DNA from: Chloroflexota bacterium | GTDB lineage: Bacteria > Chloroflexota > UBA5177 > JANWHV01 | NCBI GenBank assembly: GCA_025450375.1 | Contig: JANWHO010000274.1 | Coordinates: forward strand, 1 to 6,929 | Length of the DNA stretch: 6,929 nucleotides | Direction: 5' to 3' | Notes under the pieces: generated by a model | What the model was told of the DNA's origin: nothing | What the model saw: only the letters and a program-made list of their open reading frames with translations | The model's database searches: none | Made by a program: the position numbers and the translations under genes | Shown: positions 1-6,528 of the stretch, piece after piece | Numbering within the stretch: position 1 is the first letter of the stretch | How the letters are laid out: every line of letters starts with the position of its first letter

Positions 1-694
1 AGGAGGCCAGGAAGGCGATCGCGGCGGCCACCTCGGCTGGGTCGCCAAACCGGCGCATGGGAATGGCCTCACGGATCGCGGCGCCCGTCTGGGGGTCCGC
101 CGCGTAGTGCTCGGTCATGGGAGTGAGGATGTAGCCGGGACAGACGGCATTGACGCGGATCCGCTCATCCACCAGGTCAACGGCCAGTGACCTGGTTAAG
201 AGTATTAGTCCTCCCTTGGCGCTGTTATAGTCGGCGAACCGCGGCTCCGCGGCCAGGCCATTAAGCGAGGCGACGTTGACGATGGCGCCCCCGGTTCCGA
301 CCATCACACGCGCTACCGCGCGCGCCAGGAGGAACGGTCCAGTCAGGTTGACCTCAAGCACCCGGCGCCAACCCACCGCCGTGAGATCAAGGACCGCGGC
401 ACCCGCCCCGTCGATGCCGGCGCTGTTGACCAGCACGTCGATGCGGCCCAACCGCTCCCGTGCCTGGGCCACCAGGCGTTCAACGTCGGTCTCATCGCTG
501 AGGTCGGCGGCAATGCCGCTCACCGCCCCCAGCCCATCGAGCCGGTTGAGCGCCGCGTCGATCCGTTCGGCGTCACGCCCGTTGATCACCACGCGCGCGC
601 CCTCCCCCAGCAGACGCGCGGCGGTTGCCAGGCCGATGCCGCTGCTGCCGCCCGCGATCAGCGCCGTGCGTCCAACGAACCGTGCCAGGGCCAT
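1..694 (-). CDS. Short-chain dehydrogenase/reductase (SDR), 3' end cut off by window edge
   Basis: Classical SDR oxidoreductase with a Rossmann fold, expected to oxidise or reduce an alcohol/carbonyl with NAD(P) in the cytoplasm. The 231 visible residues contain every family landmark: the dinucleotide-binding AGGSSGIG (residues 14-21), the acidic ADL near 63-65, NSAG (90-93), the structural Asn in VNL (N116), catalytic Ser143, and YNSAK with Tyr156 and Lys160, followed by the CPG turn (185-187). Arg40 at the end of the second strand suggests, without proving, NADP preference. Family members are about 250 residues long, so roughly 20 residues are missing beyond position 1. The ATG at 694 shares one base with the stop of the HisB-like gene (TGATG), which points to translational coupling. 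The true substrate cannot be read from sequence. Family assignment is very secure. Confidence 0.95.
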   Translation of the reverse strand, partial: MALARFVGRTALIAGGSSGIGLATAARLLGEGARVVINGRDAERIDAALNRLDGLGAVSGIAADLSDETDVERLVAQARERLGRIDVLVNSAGIDGAGAAVLDLTAVGWRRVLEVNLTGPFLLARAVARVMVGTGGAIVNVASLNGLAAEPRFADYNSAKGGLILLTRSLAVDLVDERIRVNAVCPGYILTPMTEHYAADPQTGAAIREAIPMRRFGDPAEVAAAIAFLAS

Positions 695-1350
695 CAGTCC
701 AGGGTACCCTTGATGCCGGCGGTCAGTCCGGCCCGCCATTCGTTCCGGGTCAGGGCCATCCGCAGAGCCACGCCAAAGGCGCGGAAGACGCTCTCCCAGA
801 GGTGGTGGGGATCTTTGGCCTGGAGAGAGCGCAGATGGATGGTGGCCCGCGCGCCCTGGGCCAATCCGTCAAAGAAGGCATAGAGATCGGCGGATAACAT
901 ATCCTCGACCCGCTCCAGGCCCGCGGCGGGGGTGCCGAGATCATAGAAGGTATTCGCGCGCCCCTCGAAGCTGATCAGCGCCAGGGCGATCGCCTCGTCG
1001 ATGGCCATGGTGCCGGAGCCCGCGCCGTTGATCCCGCCCGGCAGGCGCTCCCGCGCCAGGCGCGCCAGGCCATGGCCAACGGTGAGGCCGATGTCCTCGG
1101 TGATCACATGGGTGAGCCGGTAGCGTTTATGGCTGAAGTGAATATCCAGGTTGAGGCAGGCGTTCCAGGCGATGGTCTCCAACATGTGGTCGAAGAAGGC
1201 AAGACCGGTATCGATCGCGCCCTCCCGGCGTGCTCCACCATCAAGCACCACCTCGGTCAGCGACTCACGCGTCTCTCGCCGCACCCGTACGCAGCCGGAG
1301 CCGTCAACGCTAACCTGGACGCCAAACTGAGCGGCCGTCTCATCGTTCAT
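694..1350 (-). CDS. HisB-like protein (imidazoleglycerol-phosphate dehydratase family), divergent active site
   Basis: A 218-residue member of the IGPD family, which dehydrates imidazole glycerol phosphate using two Mn ions. Recognisable pieces are the DG...TG..FFDHML block (His55), HVITED (His81, Glu85), IDEA (118-120), GR (Arg131), TIHL (172) and DPHHLWE (His182, His183, Glu186), ending in KG (Lys214). Compared with the Arabidopsis enzyme (numbering from memory), His72 is Val82, His143 is Ala158, His53 is Asn63, Arg97 is Gly109, Lys175 is Arg190 and the serine of the STKG end is Gly212. The equivalents of His45, His71, Glu75, Arg119, His167, His168, Glu171 and Lys199 remain. The gene lies outside any his operon. 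It probably acts on a different, perhaps unphosphorylated, substrate. The ATG at 1350 follows AGGAG (1356-1360) by five bases. Family membership is clear; IGPD activity is doubtful. Confidence 0.88.
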   Translation of the reverse strand: MNDETAAQFGVQVSVDGSGCVRVRRETRESLTEVVLDGGARREGAIDTGLAFFDHMLETIAWNACLNLDIHFSHKRYRLTHVITEDIGLTVGHGLARLARERLPGGINGAGSGTMAIDEAIALALISFEGRANTFYDLGTPAAGLERVEDMLSADLYAFFDGLAQGARATIHLRSLQAKDPHHLWESVFRAFGVALRMALTRNEWRAGLTAGIKGTLD

Positions 1351-1453: not shown

Positions 1454-2263
1454 TCACGCCAGGTTACCGAGCCGCTCCGCGTGGGCGATGCTACGCATGC
1501 TCTCCTCGCGGATCAGGTCCATCACCTGGCGCTTAAGAGCGATGAACGGCGGGCTGGTCTGCACATCGTAGTGCCGGGGCCGCGGCAGGGTAACCGGGAT
1601 CTCCGCCTTCATCCGGCCCGGCCGCGCCGTCATCACATAGATGCGATCGGAAAGGAAGATCGCTTCGTCGACATCGTGGGTGATGAACAGCACGGTGACC
1701 CGGTGCTCCTCCCACACGCGCAACAGCAACTCCTGCATCAGGCCGCGGGTCTGCGCGTCGAGGGCGCCGAACGGCTCGTCCATCAGCAGGATCGAGGGGT
1801 TGTAGGCCAGGGCACGGGCGATCGCCACGCGTTGCTGCATGCCGCCCGAGAGCTGCGATGGGTAGGCGTTCTCGAAGCCGGTGAGACCGACCATCGCGAT
1901 ATGGCGGTGGGCGATCTCCAGACGCTCTTTCCGCGCGAATCCCTTTTTGCTGAGGCCGAAGACCACGTTCCTCAGCACGGTTTGCCAGGGGAACAGGGTG
2001 TAGCTCTGGAACACCATGCCGCGATCCAGTCCCGGCCCCGTGATTGGGCGCCCATCGATGGTGAGCGTCCCGCCAGACGGCTCGATAAGCCCGGCCACCA
2101 TATTGAGGAAGGTGGACTTGCCGCAGCCGGAGGTACCGACGATGCTGATGAACTCGTTCTCGGCTACCGCCATGGTCACGTCTTCCACTGCCACGACCGC
2201 GCTCTTGCCGCCGCCAAAGGTCTTGCGTACGCCGCTGGCGCACAGCTTGTTCGCGTCACTCAT
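1454..2263 (-). CDS. ABC transporter ATP-binding protein (SsuB/TauB/NrtD-type importer)
   Basis: A 269-residue ATPase that powers the importer from the cytoplasmic face. It has Walker A GTSGCGKST (43-51), the Q-loop Gln86 in VFQSYTLFPW, signature LSGGM (138-142), Walker B ILLMDEP (158-164) followed by the FGALD D-loop, and the switch His196 in THDVDEA. The LFPW...NV segment after the Q-loop is typical of the nitrate/sulfonate/taurine/thiamine-precursor import ATPases. The ATG at 2263 overlaps the permease stop by four bases (ATGA). The only upstream purine run is poor, so translation probably depends on coupling to the permease. A longer in-frame extension upstream of this ATG lies inside the permease gene in another frame and is not real. 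The protein matches the usual family length. Confidence 0.96.
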   Translation of the reverse strand: MSDANKLCASGVRKTFGGGKSAVVAVEDVTMAVAENEFISIVGTSGCGKSTFLNMVAGLIEPSGGTLTIDGRPITGPGLDRGMVFQSYTLFPWQTVLRNVVFGLSKKGFARKERLEIAHRHIAMVGLTGFENAYPSQLSGGMQQRVAIARALAYNPSILLMDEPFGALDAQTRGLMQELLLRVWEEHRVTVLFITHDVDEAIFLSDRIYVMTARPGRMKAEIPVTLPRPRHYDVQTSPPFIALKRQVMDLIREESMRSIAHAERLGNLA

Positions 2264-3054
2264 CCGTTCTGCGTCCGCATGTACGGGAAGCACCGCGCAT
2301 AGATGATCTTGAAAATAAAGTCGATGATCAAGCCAAGCAGGCCGATCACCAGCACGCCAAGGATCATTGTCGCGGTGTCGAGATACCGCTCGGCTTGCAT
2401 GATGCGGAACCCCAGGCCCGACTCCGCCGCCACCAGCTCGGCCACCACCAGGTAGGTCCAGGCCCAGCCCATGGTGATTCGCAAGGTATCGACGATGCCC
2501 GGCAGCGACGCGGGCACGATCACGCGCAGGAGCACCTCCCACTGCCGCAGCCCGAAAGTGTAGGCCACGTTGATCAGGGTCCGCGGCACCGCCTTCACGT
2601 TGTCCATGATCAGCAATACTTCCTGAAAGAACGTGCCGATAAACAGGATCAACAGCTTTTCCGTGTCGCCGGTGCCGACCCATAGGATCGCCAACGGCAC
2701 GAAGGCCACCGCGGGCATGTAGCGGATCAAATCGATCGGCGGCTCGAAGAAGCTCTCCCCGATCTTGTAGCTGCCCATGATCACCCCGACCGGGATGGCG
2801 AAGAGGGTAGAGATCAAGAAGCCAAGGCCGATGCGGTACACGCTGGCGCCCATATCGGACCAGAGCGTGCCGTCGCCGATCTCGTTGCCGGCCTTGCCCA
2901 GCACGTCGCCGGGCGTCGGGAGAAAGAGGGGATCCACCAGACGGGCATAGCTGAGCCCGATCCAGATCACCAGGATCAGCAGCAACGAAAACGTGGCTAC
3001 CGCCAGATAGATCGGCCGCGGAATGTCTTCACGGATACGGAAAAGCCGGCGCAT
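2260..3054 (-). CDS. ABC transporter permease (SsuC/TauC/NrtB-type)
   Basis: A 264-residue inner-membrane permease with about six hydrophobic segments. The first follows a basic N-terminus (about residues 16-36), and others surround GLGFLISTLFAIPVGVIMG, VPLAILWVG, LLILFIGTFFQEVLLI and the C-terminal ILGVLVIGLLGLIIDFIF. The cytoplasmic coupling loop is visible as AYTFG, then VIVPASLPGI, which is the EAA-type motif that contacts the ATPase. The ATG at 3054 lies eight bases after the binding-protein stop, preceded by a strong AGGGAG that sits unusually close to it; the adjacent GTG at 3057 is an equally possible start. The open frame continues upstream into the binding-protein gene, but that part is arginine/glycine-rich out-of-frame sequence. 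It works with the flanking ATPase and binding protein; substrate unknown. Confidence 0.95.
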   Translation of the reverse strand: MRRLFRIREDIPRPIYLAVATFSLLLILVIWIGLSYARLVDPLFLPTPGDVLGKAGNEIGDGTLWSDMGASVYRIGLGFLISTLFAIPVGVIMGSYKIGESFFEPPIDLIRYMPAVAFVPLAILWVGTGDTEKLLILFIGTFFQEVLLIMDNVKAVPRTLINVAYTFGLRQWEVLLRVIVPASLPGIVDTLRITMGWAWTYLVVAELVAAESGLGFRIMQAERYLDTATMILGVLVIGLLGLIIDFIFKIIYARCFPYMRTQNG

Positions 3055-3062
3055 CACTCCCT

Positions 3063-4067
3063 CTACGGCAGGAAGGAGAAGTTGAGCGTGGTCGCCGGGT
3101 TGAGTGTGCTCTTCACCACCCCAGTAGAGCGCAGCACCTCGTTGACCATCCGATAGCGTTTCTGGATCAGGCCCTTGGCCAGGCTCTTGTTCTGGGCAAC
3201 GGTGTAGATCACGGCGCCGGCCAGCGTTGTCTTGAGGTCGGACGGCGAGCTGCCCACGCCCTTGGCCATGATCGCCACGCCGTCGGCGTAGTTCCGCGCC
3301 CAATAGGTCATCGAATCGTTCCAGGCCCGCAGCAGCGCCCGTACTTCCTCGGGGTGATTCTTGATCAGGCTATTGTTGGCCACCATGAAGTCCCCGATCA
3401 GGCCGGGCGCGACCTTGCTGCTATACAACACATGGATGCCCTTCCCCTTTCCGGCCACCGAGCTGATGTACGGCTCGTAGGTTACGGCGGCATCGACCCG
3501 CCCAGCCACCAGGGCCGTGGCCGCGTCCGCGGCGGGAATGTTCTGGGATTTCACGGCGCTCACGGGAATATGCGCATGCAGGAGCGCATAGTGGAAGAGG
3601 AGATCGCTGGTGGTCCCGAACTCGTAGGCGACCGTCTTGCCGCGCAGATCGTTGAGCGTTTTGATCGAGGCGCTACCGAGCATCGCGTCGGCGCCCTCGG
3701 AATCATCCAGAAGCAGCACGGGGGTGATCGGCAGATGGTTATTGAGGATCAGCTTGATCGAGGTGTGGGTGGCGATGTTGGCGACCTGCGTGTTGCCCGA
3801 GGCGAGCGCCGCGTTCAGATCGGCATCCTGCTGGAAGGTGATGATCTGGACATCGAGCCCCTCTTTTTTGAAGAAGCCCTTCGCCTGCGCGATCCACCAG
3901 GGGCCATAGCCGATCCAGGGCTCCGTGCCCATCTTGAGCGAGGGCAACGCGGCCGGCCGAGCCGAGACCCGTCCAAGGCCGCCGGCTCCGCCCGCCAGCA
4001 GGCTGGTCACCATCAGGGCCGTCGCCACTGTCCGCATGCCGCGGAAGAATACCGGTCGCCGCGTCAT
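3063..4067 (-). CDS. ABC transporter substrate-binding protein (NMT1/THI5-like, SsuA/TauA family)
   Basis: A 334-residue exported solute-binding protein. The N-terminus is basic (RRPVFFRGMR) and is followed by a hydrophobic stretch (about 14-32) and a likely signal peptidase I site after VSA (residue 36). No lipobox cysteine is present, so it is probably periplasmic rather than a lipoprotein. The mature protein opens with KMGTEPWIGYGPWWIAQAKG and FFKKEGLDV, the hallmark of nitrate/sulfonate/taurine/thiamine-precursor binding proteins. DLRGKTVAYEFGTTSD and AGRVDAAVTYEPY are also typical of the family. The CCCFC motif of the thiamine-precursor protein ThiY/THI5 is absent. The ATG at 4067 follows AAGGAG (4075-4080) by seven bases. 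Together with the downstream permease and ATPase it forms a complete importer, presumably supplying substrate to the enzymes on both sides. The ligand cannot be predicted with confidence. Confidence 0.94.
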   Translation of the reverse strand: MTRRPVFFRGMRTVATALMVTSLLAGGAGGLGRVSARPAALPSLKMGTEPWIGYGPWWIAQAKGFFKKEGLDVQIITFQQDADLNAALASGNTQVANIATHTSIKLILNNHLPITPVLLLDDSEGADAMLGSASIKTLNDLRGKTVAYEFGTTSDLLFHYALLHAHIPVSAVKSQNIPAADAATALVAGRVDAAVTYEPYISSVAGKGKGIHVLYSSKVAPGLIGDFMVANNSLIKNHPEEVRALLRAWNDSMTYWARNYADGVAIMAKGVGSSPSDLKTTLAGAVIYTVAQNKSLAKGLIQKRYRMVNEVLRSTGVVKSTLNPATTLNFSFLP

Positions 4068-4129: not shown

Positions 4130-5455
4130 TCAGTGCTCGTTCACGCCGAGACCACGGATGCGCATGGCTGCCGCGTGCTGGGGAAAGCCTTCATGCTCGG
4201 CCAGCGCGATCACCGTCTGAGCCATCGGTGACAGACCCTCGCGGCTCAGGTAGGCAATCGAGCCGCGCTTGCGGAAGCTGTGGGCGGTGACTCCCGAACT
4301 CACGTGGGCAAAGCCGCCGGTCGGCAGGGTCGCCGGTACACCAATCGCGAAATTGGCGGCGCTGATGGGCGTCTCCTGACCCAGCAGGATCTCGCCGGCG
4401 TTCTCCAGCTTGCCCAGCACGAACAGGGGGTCGCGGGTAGCCACCTGCATGTGCTCCGCCGCGTACTCATTGGCGAAGGCAATACCCTCCTCCAGGTCGC
4501 GCACGACGATCGCCCCACCGTAGGTGCTGATGGCGGCCTCGGCGAAGGCGCGCCGCCACTCCGGCAACGCGGCAAGCTGCGTTCGCACCTCGCGCGCCAC
4601 GGCATCGACCAAGTCACGAGACGGCGTGACCAGGAGCGAGGCGGAATCAGGACCATGCTCGGCCTCGTTCAGATAGTCCGCGGCCAGGACTCGTGGATCG
4701 GCACTGTCGTCCGCCAGGATCAGGCTCTCGGAGGGCCCGAAGAGCAGCGAGACCTCCACGCCTTCGAGCTGGGCCAGGATCTGGGCGGCGGTGACCGCCT
4801 GCGAGCCGGGACCGGCGATCTTCCGCACGCGCCGGATCGTCGCGGTGCCGATTGCCAGGGCGGCGACGCCGGCCGGTCCGTTGGCACGGTAGATCTCGGT
4901 TAGACCGAGCTGCGCGGCCACCACCAGTACGGCTGGATCGACCGCCTTTCCCCGCCCCTTCACCGGCGGCAGGACCACGGCGATCTCCGCCACGCCGGCG
5001 ACCACGGCAGGCGTGGCGATCTGTACCAGCACCGAGGGGAATGAGCCTTTGCCGCAGGGCACGTAGAGTCCGACCCGATCGATCGGCGTGCTCTTCTCAC
5101 CCAGGACCACGCCGGGCGCGAAAGTTTCCAGCCACGAACTGCCCTCCAGCAACCGCTCGTTGTAGCGCCGGACCGCCGCGATGGAGGCCGTCACGGCAGT
5201 CTGTACCGACTCCGGCACCTGGCGGACCGCCTCCGTGATCTCCTCTGCCGTCACCCTGATCTCCTCCGCGCGGAGAGTGACCCCATCGTAGCGTTCCAGC
5301 GCCTCCACCAGCGCGGCGTCACCGTCCCGCCGCACGCGGTCGTAGATCGCGCGCACGCTGTCCAGATTCTCGGCTTTGAAGATAGACGCGGTGGAGCGGC
5401 CGAGGATCATGCGGCGCTCCTCCGCGGTCATGGTGGCGGAGTCGTAGACGCGCAT
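4130..5455 (-). CDS. HisD-like dehydrogenase (histidinol dehydrogenase family), altered zinc ligands
   Basis: A 441-residue HisD homologue, close to the 434 of E. coli HisD and alignable from its first residues. HisD uses Zn and two NAD to oxidise histidinol to histidine. Family blocks include YVPCGKGSFPS (131-141), NGPAGVAALAIGT (192-204), KIAGPGS (212-218), GPSES (240-244), EAEHGPDS (264-271) and AAEHM (332-336). The catalytic Glu-His pair is kept (Glu334, His335), as are Glu422 and His427. The E. coli zinc ligands Gln259, His262, Asp360 and His419 (numbering from memory) correspond to Glu264, His267, Asn368 and His427. The substrate-site His367 corresponds to Ala375. It may be an alcohol or amino-alcohol dehydrogenase of a new pathway, as HpsN is for sulfopropanediol. 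The ATG at 5455 is chosen over more upstream codons because of its ribosome binding site and the family N-terminus. Confidence 0.93.
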   Translation of the reverse strand: MRVYDSATMTAEERRMILGRSTASIFKAENLDSVRAIYDRVRRDGDAALVEALERYDGVTLRAEEIRVTAEEITEAVRQVPESVQTAVTASIAAVRRYNERLLEGSSWLETFAPGVVLGEKSTPIDRVGLYVPCGKGSFPSVLVQIATPAVVAGVAEIAVVLPPVKGRGKAVDPAVLVVAAQLGLTEIYRANGPAGVAALAIGTATIRRVRKIAGPGSQAVTAAQILAQLEGVEVSLLFGPSESLILADDSADPRVLAADYLNEAEHGPDSASLLVTPSRDLVDAVAREVRTQLAALPEWRRAFAEAAISTYGGAIVVRDLEEGIAFANEYAAEHMQVATRDPLFVLGKLENAGEILLGQETPISAANFAIGVPATLPTGGFAHVSSGVTAHSFRKRGSIAYLSREGLSPMAQTVIALAEHEGFPQHAAAMRIRGLGVNEH

Positions 5456-5469: not shown

Positions 5470-6522
5470 TCAGGCCCAGGCCAGGAGGCGCCGGGGAGTC
5501 TCTTCCAACAACAAACGGATCAGTTCGGGTCCATGGCCGCGCCGGGCCAGTTCCGGGGCGATGCGCGTGAGCAGGTGCGCGTAACCCGCGCCGCCGTGAC
5601 GGCGGAGTTGGGTCTTGGTGCAGACATCCTGCGCCACCCCCACCCGATCGATCCATCCCTCATGGATGGCTGTTTCCAGGGCGTCGATGCGCTGAGCGTC
5701 GGTCGGCATACCCTTGCCGCCATAGTCGGCTTCGTCGCCCCAGATATCGTAGCAGATGGTGGCGCCCCGCTCGGCCAGCGAGCGGTGATACGCGGTATCG
5801 GGCAGCGAAGGGTCGAGATGGCAGAGGACAACCCGTTGGAGATCGGCCCCCGCCTTCTCCGCGATATCCAGCGCCTGGTGTCCGGCGCGTCCCCAGGGAT
5901 CCAGGTGGATAAACAGCGGCGCGCCGGTCTGATGCTGCGCTGCCGACGCGGCCTCCAGCACCCGCTGCTCTCGCGCCGTAATGGGGTCCGAGGTGCCGAT
6001 CTCCCCGATCACCCCGGCGCGCACTGGCGGCCCCTCCGTAACCGGCACGCCCTGGCGCAAATCGGTAAGCAGGCGCAGGGCAATCATCTCCACGTCCTCA
6101 CCGGCCAGCGAAGGCGGATGAGCGCCGTCGATGTAGTGGCCGCAGCCCATGACGATCGTGAGACCGGTGCGCGCCGCGACACGGCGGAGGCGTACCGGAT
6201 CACGACCAATGTCGGGCAAGGTGAGATCCACCACCGTGCGGCCACCGGCCGCGGCGAAGAGGGAAAGCTCGTCACGGGCCAGATCATCGTCGTCGAGGTG
6301 CAGGTTATCACGCACGCTGAACGGATCGTATCGAAGCGGCGCGGCGATTTCCGGCCCAACCGGCTGTTCGGCCTGGCGCCGCGCCTCATCGGTGAGCGGC
6401 GGCGTCAGCCACACATCGAGATCGATGAAGATATGTTCATGGATCAGCGTTGGCCCAAGCGCCGTGCCCGACACCGGACCGCCTACACTGATTGCCCGTG
6501 ACCTATCGGGAGACACGCGCAC
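5470..6522 (-). CDS. Phosphotriesterase-family metal-dependent hydrolase (amidohydrolase superfamily)
   Basis: A 350-residue TIM-barrel hydrolase with a binuclear metal centre. Residues that fit the ligand set are His28 and His30 (in LIHEHIF), Glu174 (in VIGEIGTSD), His206 (FIHLDPWG), His235 (VLCHLDPS) and Asp299 (VAQDVCTK). Family strands GGRTVVDLT (93-101) and MGCGHYID (125-132) are also clear. Glu174 occupies the place of the carboxylated lysine in classical phosphotriesterase, as in the Php subgroup. Members hydrolyse phosphotriesters, lactones or other esters, so the reaction cannot be fixed from sequence. It is the first gene of the cluster, separated by 14 bp from the HisD-like gene. 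The start is taken as GTG at 6522, since GGAGG ends six bases before it. A TTG at 6528 touches the Shine-Dalgarno sequence and is unlikely. Confidence 0.92.
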   Translation of the reverse strand: MRVSPDRSRAISVGGPVSGTALGPTLIHEHIFIDLDVWLTPPLTDEARRQAEQPVGPEIAAPLRYDPFSVRDNLHLDDDDLARDELSLFAAAGGRTVVDLTLPDIGRDPVRLRRVAARTGLTIVMGCGHYIDGAHPPSLAGEDVEMIALRLLTDLRQGVPVTEGPPVRAGVIGEIGTSDPITAREQRVLEAASAAQHQTGAPLFIHLDPWGRAGHQALDIAEKAGADLQRVVLCHLDPSLPDTAYHRSLAERGATICYDIWGDEADYGGKGMPTDAQRIDALETAIHEGWIDRVGVAQDVCTKTQLRRHGGAGYAHLLTRIAPELARRGHGPELIRLLLEETPRRLLAWA

Positions 6523-6528
6523 GACCAA

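Follow-up and report, generated by a model that had tools for sequence, protein, structure and literature searches.

The window, by which we mean the whole stretch of 6,929 nucleotides analysed, encodes on its reverse strand a 218-residue protein (694..1350, read from 1350 to 694) with the fold of imidazoleglycerol-phosphate dehydratase (IGPD), which we call HisB'. Judged by its sequence, HisB' represents a distant, anciently separated second branch of IGPD-fold dehydratases with a rebuilt active site. Together with HisD', a HisD homologue encoded in the same window, it appears to have replaced normal hisB and hisD in several uncultured bacteria. We tentatively favor a reading in which HisB' and HisD' work from imidazole glycerol to histidine and in which the substrate of HisB' would most likely carry no phosphate. 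The fold and the type of chemistry are known; no paper found in the open-licence part of PubMed Central, a scope that excludes subscription papers and preprints, describes the HisB' clade, the fixed changes in its active site, its partnership with HisD' or the apparent replacement of hisB and hisD.

Membership of HisB' in the IGPD superfamily was indicated by a PF00475 profile match above the curated cut-off and by the IGPD fold. Thirteen NCBIfam HisB models matched the window protein, every one below its equivalog cut-off (the best at 106.2 vs. 283). HisB' shared 27-32% identity with IGPD proper (EC 4.2.1.19) in structural alignments, and it lacked the full set of Mn ligands, the full set of phosphate contacts and a position in the ordinary clade. 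A careful tree of 74 rows split 32 HisB' sequences from 42 ordinary ones with 100/100 support and a branch length of 2.5; it omits 12 of the 86 rows of a quick tree (L115, four tandem rows, L014, L015, L016, L021, L022, P0110, and L029). The preliminary description of the window had proposed a tree as a check on whether the altered residues define a clade, and this separation from ordinary HisB indicates that they do. In the quick tree, tandem two-domain proteins from Patescibacteria, labeled ordinary beforehand, grouped with HisB', close to the long branches L115 and P0110, a placement that may be a long-branch artefact. The nearest named locus to the window was from a Thermoleophilaceae MAG (58% identity for HisB', 61% for HisD' and 73% for the phosphotriesterase-family protein described below).

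The residues that bind metal and phosphate in Arabidopsis IGPD2 are given in PMC4509728: H47, H74, H169 and E173 for Mn1; H73, E77, H145 and H170 for Mn2; and Q51, H55, R99 and K177, then R121, S199 and K201, for the phosphate, within an active site formed between chains. Alignment of the window HisB' to IGPD2 showed that one ligand of Mn1 (H74, now V82) and one of Mn2 (H145, now A158) were lost, and that four phosphate contacts were changed (Q51 to T59, H55 to N63, R99 to G109, and S199 to G212). A fifth contact, K177, was R190, and R121 (R131) and K201 (K214) were kept. The catalytic E21 (E29), the water-binding D108 (D118), the metal ligands H47 (H55), H73 (H81) and E77 (E85), and the second motif H169/H170/E173 (H182/H183/E186) were retained. 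Six of the eight Mn ligands were thus present. The altered and intact residues named in the preliminary description were all as it stated, and its assignment of the lost positions to Mn ligands and phosphate contacts agrees with the IGPD2 assignments in PMC4509728. It had also suggested that one metal site might be changed or lost; metal ligands are indeed missing, but one is gone from each site rather than a whole site. Its further suggestion, a substrate that may carry no phosphate, coincides with the reading that we tentatively favor. An AlphaFold2 model of the HisB' monomer was well formed.

The family alignment comprised 141 rows, namely the window, 22 loci and 118 database proteins taken from the best 120 of 177 matches, with one identical and one short protein left out. 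Row groups were set by identity rank and not blind (43-58% for family loci L001-L022, at most 37% for ordinary HisB loci L023-L080). The H74 position was valine in 136 of the 141 HisB' rows and histidine in all 58 ordinary rows. Likewise, the R99 position was glycine, serine or alanine in 138 HisB' rows and arginine in 58/58 ordinary rows, and the S199 position was glycine in 139 HisB' rows and serine or threonine in every ordinary row. The comparison with other IGPDs that had been proposed at the outset therefore showed changes shared by nearly all family members and absent from ordinary HisB. Loss of H145 was less diagnostic because this position, as aligned, varied even among the 58 ordinary rows (histidine in 43, glutamate in 12, and aspartate in 3) and was glutamate in 18 of the 141 HisB' rows. 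H55 was still histidine in 27 HisB' rows and Q51 still glutamine in 12.

Three residues, L79, E129, and D155, were newly invariant in HisB' (141/141 rows). The ordinary rows had aspartate at the first position (58/58), serine, glycine or cysteine at the second (30, 26, and 2 rows), and methionine or leucine at the third (31 and 27 rows). E129 lies in a loop in the model, two residues away from the phosphate-binding R121 (R131 of the window protein), and the two acidic residues, E129 and D155, could act as replacements for the lost Mn ligands. The catalytic glutamate (E29) was found in 140 and D118 in all 141 of the HisB' rows; of the basic residues of the phosphate pocket, R121 was present in 141 rows, arginine in place of K177 in 140 and K201 in 133. 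Twenty-four columns were invariant among 75 aligned HisB' members. The fixation of these changes across the 141 rows excludes chance or sequencing error as their source in the window HisB'. A highly divergent, long-branched relative in G084 (L115, also L149:4296-4865, reverse strand), 37-39% identical, lacked the conserved Glu29 and had HT rather than HV in the first motif.

HisD' (4130..5455, reverse strand) matched Pfam Histidinol_dh at 403.9 bits and TIGR00069 at 384.7, above the cut-off of 243.8. Its open reading frame is open from 5656, and comparison with relatives makes 5455 the likely start. A HisD homologue was present on 19 of the 22 HisB' family loci. The other three loci (L005, L017, and L018) end at contig ends, and HisD' was found elsewhere in those genomes (L154, L153, and L156). 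HisD' rows formed one group of 28 in a quick tree (SH-aLRT 91; parts 99 and 100). In E. coli numbering, the window HisD' has glutamate for Q259, asparagine for D360 and alanine for H367; Q259 and D360 are presumably zinc ligands. Glutamate occupied position 259 in all 23 non-Patescibacterial HisD' rows that cover it, and arginine or lysine did so in the four Patescibacterial rows. The changes at D360 and H367 were found in 22 of 22 covering non-Patescibacterial rows, but the four Patescibacterial rows retained both residues. E326, H327, H262, and H419 were kept in HisD' wherever a row covers them. Among 56 other HisD rows, glutamate occurred at 259 in three, asparagine at 360 in three and H367 in all, so only the H367 change is peculiar to HisD'.

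The zinc site of HisD is made up of Gln, Asp, and two His, according to PMC11382572; the window HisD' keeps the two histidines (H262 and H419) and has Glu and Asn in place of the other two. The same source describes sulfopropanediol 3-dehydrogenase, HpsN, a HisD relative outside histidine metabolism that performs the four-electron oxidation of a diol, with a hydroxyl in the amine's place, and that has a G-R-Y-A/S-H motif with a zinc/sulfonate histidine (PMC11382572). HisD' scored 232.3 bits against HisD chains and 163.4 bits against HpsN chains, which places it nearer to HisD, and the window protein reads G-K-G-S-F at the motif columns, without the motif histidine. Two other HisD homologues, L155 (G008) and L168 (G003), had G-R-Y at these columns, a lysine after Asp360 and no motif histidine; they are possibly another HisD offshoot.

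The remaining genes of the window, all on the reverse strand, make its HisB' look like part of an uptake-and-breakdown cluster. An ABC importer is encoded by genes for a substrate-binding protein of the NMT1/SsuA/taurine type (3063..4067; Pfam NMT1, with a subcutoff SsuA_fam match), whose nearest solved chain is a taurine-binding protein (48.4 bits), a TauC-like permease (2260..3054; Pfam BPD_transp_1, an ORF with an ATG start) and an ATPase (1454..2290; Pfam ABC_tran). The start of the ATPase is approximate, since its ORF is open to 2683 and was placed by the in-frame match to relatives. The cluster also encodes a phosphotriesterase-family hydrolase of the amidohydrolase/lactonase type (5470..6528; Pfam PTE, 196.5 bits), whose nearest solved chain is the phosphotriesterase-related 3k2g (268.5 bits), and an SDR oxidoreductase truncated by the window end (2..739; Pfam adh_short_C2). 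Neighboring genes at the loci of relatives were read by tblastn with named reference genes and counted over 22 loci at 1e-20. Nine family loci have the ABC trio, as do L147, L148, and L173; a phosphotriesterase relative was found in eight of those nine and in L173. The SDR gene was present in six family loci and also adjoins HisB' in L003. Histidine ammonia-lyase (HAL) was encoded in 6/22 family loci and urocanase in 3/22, each with three further loci; the closest solved chains to the HAL of L003 are histidine ammonia-lyases. A HisC-like aminotransferase gene occurred in L004, L005, L006, L007, and L173, directly after HisB' in L005 and L006 and adjacent to it in L007 and L173. A relative of FMN-dependent hydroxy-acid dehydrogenases was found in three of the 22 loci and in L173. 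No kinase or phosphatase was present among the named members of window-type clusters, in which part of the ORFs was annotated.

Ordinary HisB was also encoded in 7 of the 12 genomes with a window-type cluster (G003, G005, G006, G007, G017, G159, and G1095), which argues for another job for HisB' there; G1095 has ordinary HisD as well. G135 was not counted as a bearer of ordinary HisB: the protein query gave two matches and the Pfam profile one. G003 carries more than one kind of HisB and of HisD, perhaps through contamination.

Other genomes carried the pair in place of the usual his genes. The Peribacteria locus L001 has the order TrpR, HisG, HisD, HisB', HisH-A-F, HisI-E, with a HisC-like gene nearby on the opposite strand, and HisB' was the single IGPD of that genome (G001). 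In the Patescibacteria G469 and G511 the order is TrpR, HisG, aminotransferase, HisD, a two-domain HisB'-like protein, HisH-A-F, HisI-E, and this tandem form was the only kind of HisB found. In the G511 operon (L145) the gene after HisB' belongs to the inositol-monophosphatase family, and another gene of that family lies beside hisZ in L146. The tandem protein has 420 residues and two IGPD domains (L145:8776-10038, reverse strand, in G511; L144, about 8826-10028, reverse strand, in G469). PHHTWE is intact in domain 1, which is missing the first HxxxE region; SHVVLED is intact in domain 2, which has PEQAWIE as its second motif. These sequence losses are complementary, as if one composite active site were left.

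Eight genomes of the Solirubrobacterales type (G009, G012, G013, G014, G015, G016, G022, and G202) have the operon HisZ-HisG-HisH-HisA-HisF, without hisD and hisB; the comparison genomes G007 and G003 have HisZ-HisG-HisD-HisB-HisH-HisA-HisF. No IGPD or HisD other than the HisB'-HisD' pair was found in these eight genomes. HAL was present in G009 and was not found in G012-G016 and G022, among the searched genomes of this set. In the Chloroflexi G005, G006, and G017 (L158, L159, and L160) the operon is TrpR-HisG-HisC-HisB-HisH-HisF, without hisD, and the only HisD kind in the genome is HisD'. G004 and G018 (L091 and L092) have TrpR-HisG-HisH-HisF-HisIE, without hisB, hisC, and hisD. Since MAGs are incomplete, the absence of hisB and hisD from whole genomes is tentative; the gene order in contiguous operons is firmer. 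Chloroflexi that bear the HisB'/HisD' cluster display a stepwise loss from the operon, from G-D-C-B-H-F (L164, G003:C374) through G-C-B-H-F to G-H-F. Three Omnitrophota genomes (G019-G021; L019, L020, and L021) have a HisD'-HisB' pair and HisA/HisF matches. None of them gave a HisG match, which leaves a biosynthetic role without support in these three genomes.

In the reaction that we propose, HisB' would keep the chemistry of HisB, in which the C2 hydrogen is abstracted and the C3 hydroxyl lost with the imidazole ring at the metal pair, and would convert imidazole glycerol to imidazole acetol. A HisC-like aminotransferase would then form histidinol, which HisD' would oxidize to histidine. In the window cluster an imported imidazole compound may be converted to histidine by these steps, and histidine ammonia-lyase and urocanase would then degrade the product; several lineages would have kept the HisB'-HisD' pair for biosynthesis, where it displaced hisB and hisD and where a phosphatase would act on imidazole glycerol phosphate ahead of HisB'. 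The fold, the clade, the changed residues, the partnership with HisD' and the presence or absence of genes are observed; the substrate, the product, the order of the steps and the direction of the cluster are all parts that we infer. Several features suggest a substrate without phosphate: the grip on phosphate is lost, E129 near R121 is invariant, the cluster is fed by an importer, and HisB' occurs alongside ordinary HisB in some genomes. Replacement in his operons, in turn, indicates that a HisB'-type enzyme can serve histidine biosynthesis, and the two readings are compatible if HisB' uses imidazole glycerol and the phosphatase acts earlier than usual. In G005, G006, and G017, HisD' is the only HisD kind and accompanies ordinary HisB and a HisC relative, a sign that it may still oxidize histidinol; this favors the imidazole acetol and histidinol route over an imidazole glycerate route.

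Several observations speak against this reading. The persistence of R121, K201, and arginine for K177 means that phosphate, or a carboxylate, may still bind. The phosphotriesterase, SDR, Zn-ADH, and FMN-dehydrogenase genes are left unexplained by imidazole glycerol, and the imidazole acetol route does not require the altered sites of HisD'. The aminotransferases of window-type clusters keep Arg322 and Arg335, in what we take to be the numbering of E. coli HisC, as would be expected for a phosphorylated substrate too; those of L144 and L145 are without Arg322 and that of L001 is without Arg335. These arginines were dropped as a test for phosphate because aromatic aminotransferases use the equivalent residues for dicarboxylates, as stated in PMC4703992. 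It is rather unlikely, though conceivable, that the replacement lineages remove the phosphate first and run the later steps unphosphorylated with a pair recruited from a window-like imidazole catabolic cluster. The intermediates would then be imidazole acetol and histidinol, or else imidazole glycerate followed by imidazole pyruvate. The presence of a phosphatase does not favor such a changed order, because every his pathway should have one of the HisN type.

The strongest competitor to a phosphate-free substrate, possible but on balance somewhat unlikely, is that HisB' is an alternative IGPD that acts on imidazole glycerol phosphate in the usual pathway order with a remodeled metal and phosphate site, in which E129 and D155, or E149/D150, would be new ligands and R190 would stand in for K177. 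It is nearly as good an explanation because the three basic residues of the phosphate pocket (R121, R190, and K201) persist. The location of HisB' (L001) and of the tandem protein (L144 and L145) inside operons with HisG, HisD, HisH/A/F, and HisIE, and HisB' as sole IGPD beside HisZ-G-H-A-F in the eight Solirubrobacterales-type genomes, fit it well, as does glutamate for H145 in 12 of the 58 ordinary rows, which indicates that ligand swaps are tolerated. However, R99, S199, and H74 are gone from HisB' although they are invariant or nearly so in ordinary HisB, a second IGPD would be redundant in the seven cluster genomes that keep the ordinary enzyme, and a phosphorylated intermediate would be unexpected in a cluster supplied by an importer. 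An improbable variant has oxidation come before dehydration: HisD' would convert imidazole glycerol to imidazole glycerate, HisB' would form imidazole pyruvate, and a keto-acid aminotransferase would yield histidine. Active-site changes in both neighboring genes, the diol oxidation by the HisD relative HpsN (PMC11382572), the hydroxy-acid dehydrogenase relatives and the missing arginines of the L144, L145, and L001 aminotransferases are consistent with such an order, and the kept basic residues could hold a carboxylate. Yet HisD' probably handles histidinol in G005, G006, and G017, it lacks the HpsN histidine motif, and its changes at Q259 and D360 also occur in a few other HisD rows.

About equally improbable is a catabolic role for HisB' on an unrelated hydroxylated imidazole or other heterocycle, with the sole-HisB pattern a product of gaps in MAGs or of histidine auxotrophy. 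This role would account for the phosphotriesterase, SDR, Zn-ADH, and ABC genes, which are superfluous to a plain imidazole glycerol route, and the MAGs are incomplete; but in the eight his operons, each contiguous, the gene order itself and not a gap accounts for the missing hisB and hisD, and HisB' lies inside Patescibacterial his operons. Decay to an inactive HisB copy, which the loss of metal and phosphate residues in the window sequence might by itself suggest, is hardly credible given the invariant columns, the new invariant residues, the well-formed model and the conserved HisD' partnership. The preliminary description had argued for a new function rather than decay. The fixed changes and the conserved clade uphold its rejection of decay, but a new function is indicated or not depending on the genome: in the Patescibacteria and the Solirubrobacterales-type genomes HisB' is the sole HisB beside HisG, HisH, HisA, and HisF and may stand in for HisB.

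Histidine biosynthesis is commonly presented as a single invariable series of steps. A separate HisB/HisD pair that accompanies normal HisB in some genomes and takes its place in others would imply that the HisB active site exists in a second form or that the final steps follow another order; if the phosphate-free reading is true in the replacement genomes, histidine is made there in a changed order. The pair makes testable how much of the metal and phosphate site of HisB the reaction needs. Recognition of the clade would also correct the annotation "imidazoleglycerol-phosphate dehydratase" that databases give to many HisB' members.

HisB' was sparsely distributed. In the class of G010, 13 of 399 genomes have it at no less than 48% identity, and one further, divergent copy stands at 39%; in the phylum of G004 it was found in 4 of 400 genomes (E 1e-30). 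In the phylum of G001 an IGPD of whatever kind was found in 10 of 379 genomes, with HisB' in one and the tandem form in two. Two records titled as a Bifidobacterium breve MAG (L010 and L022) have HisB' and HisD' that fall among Solirubrobacterales rows and are probably mis-titled.
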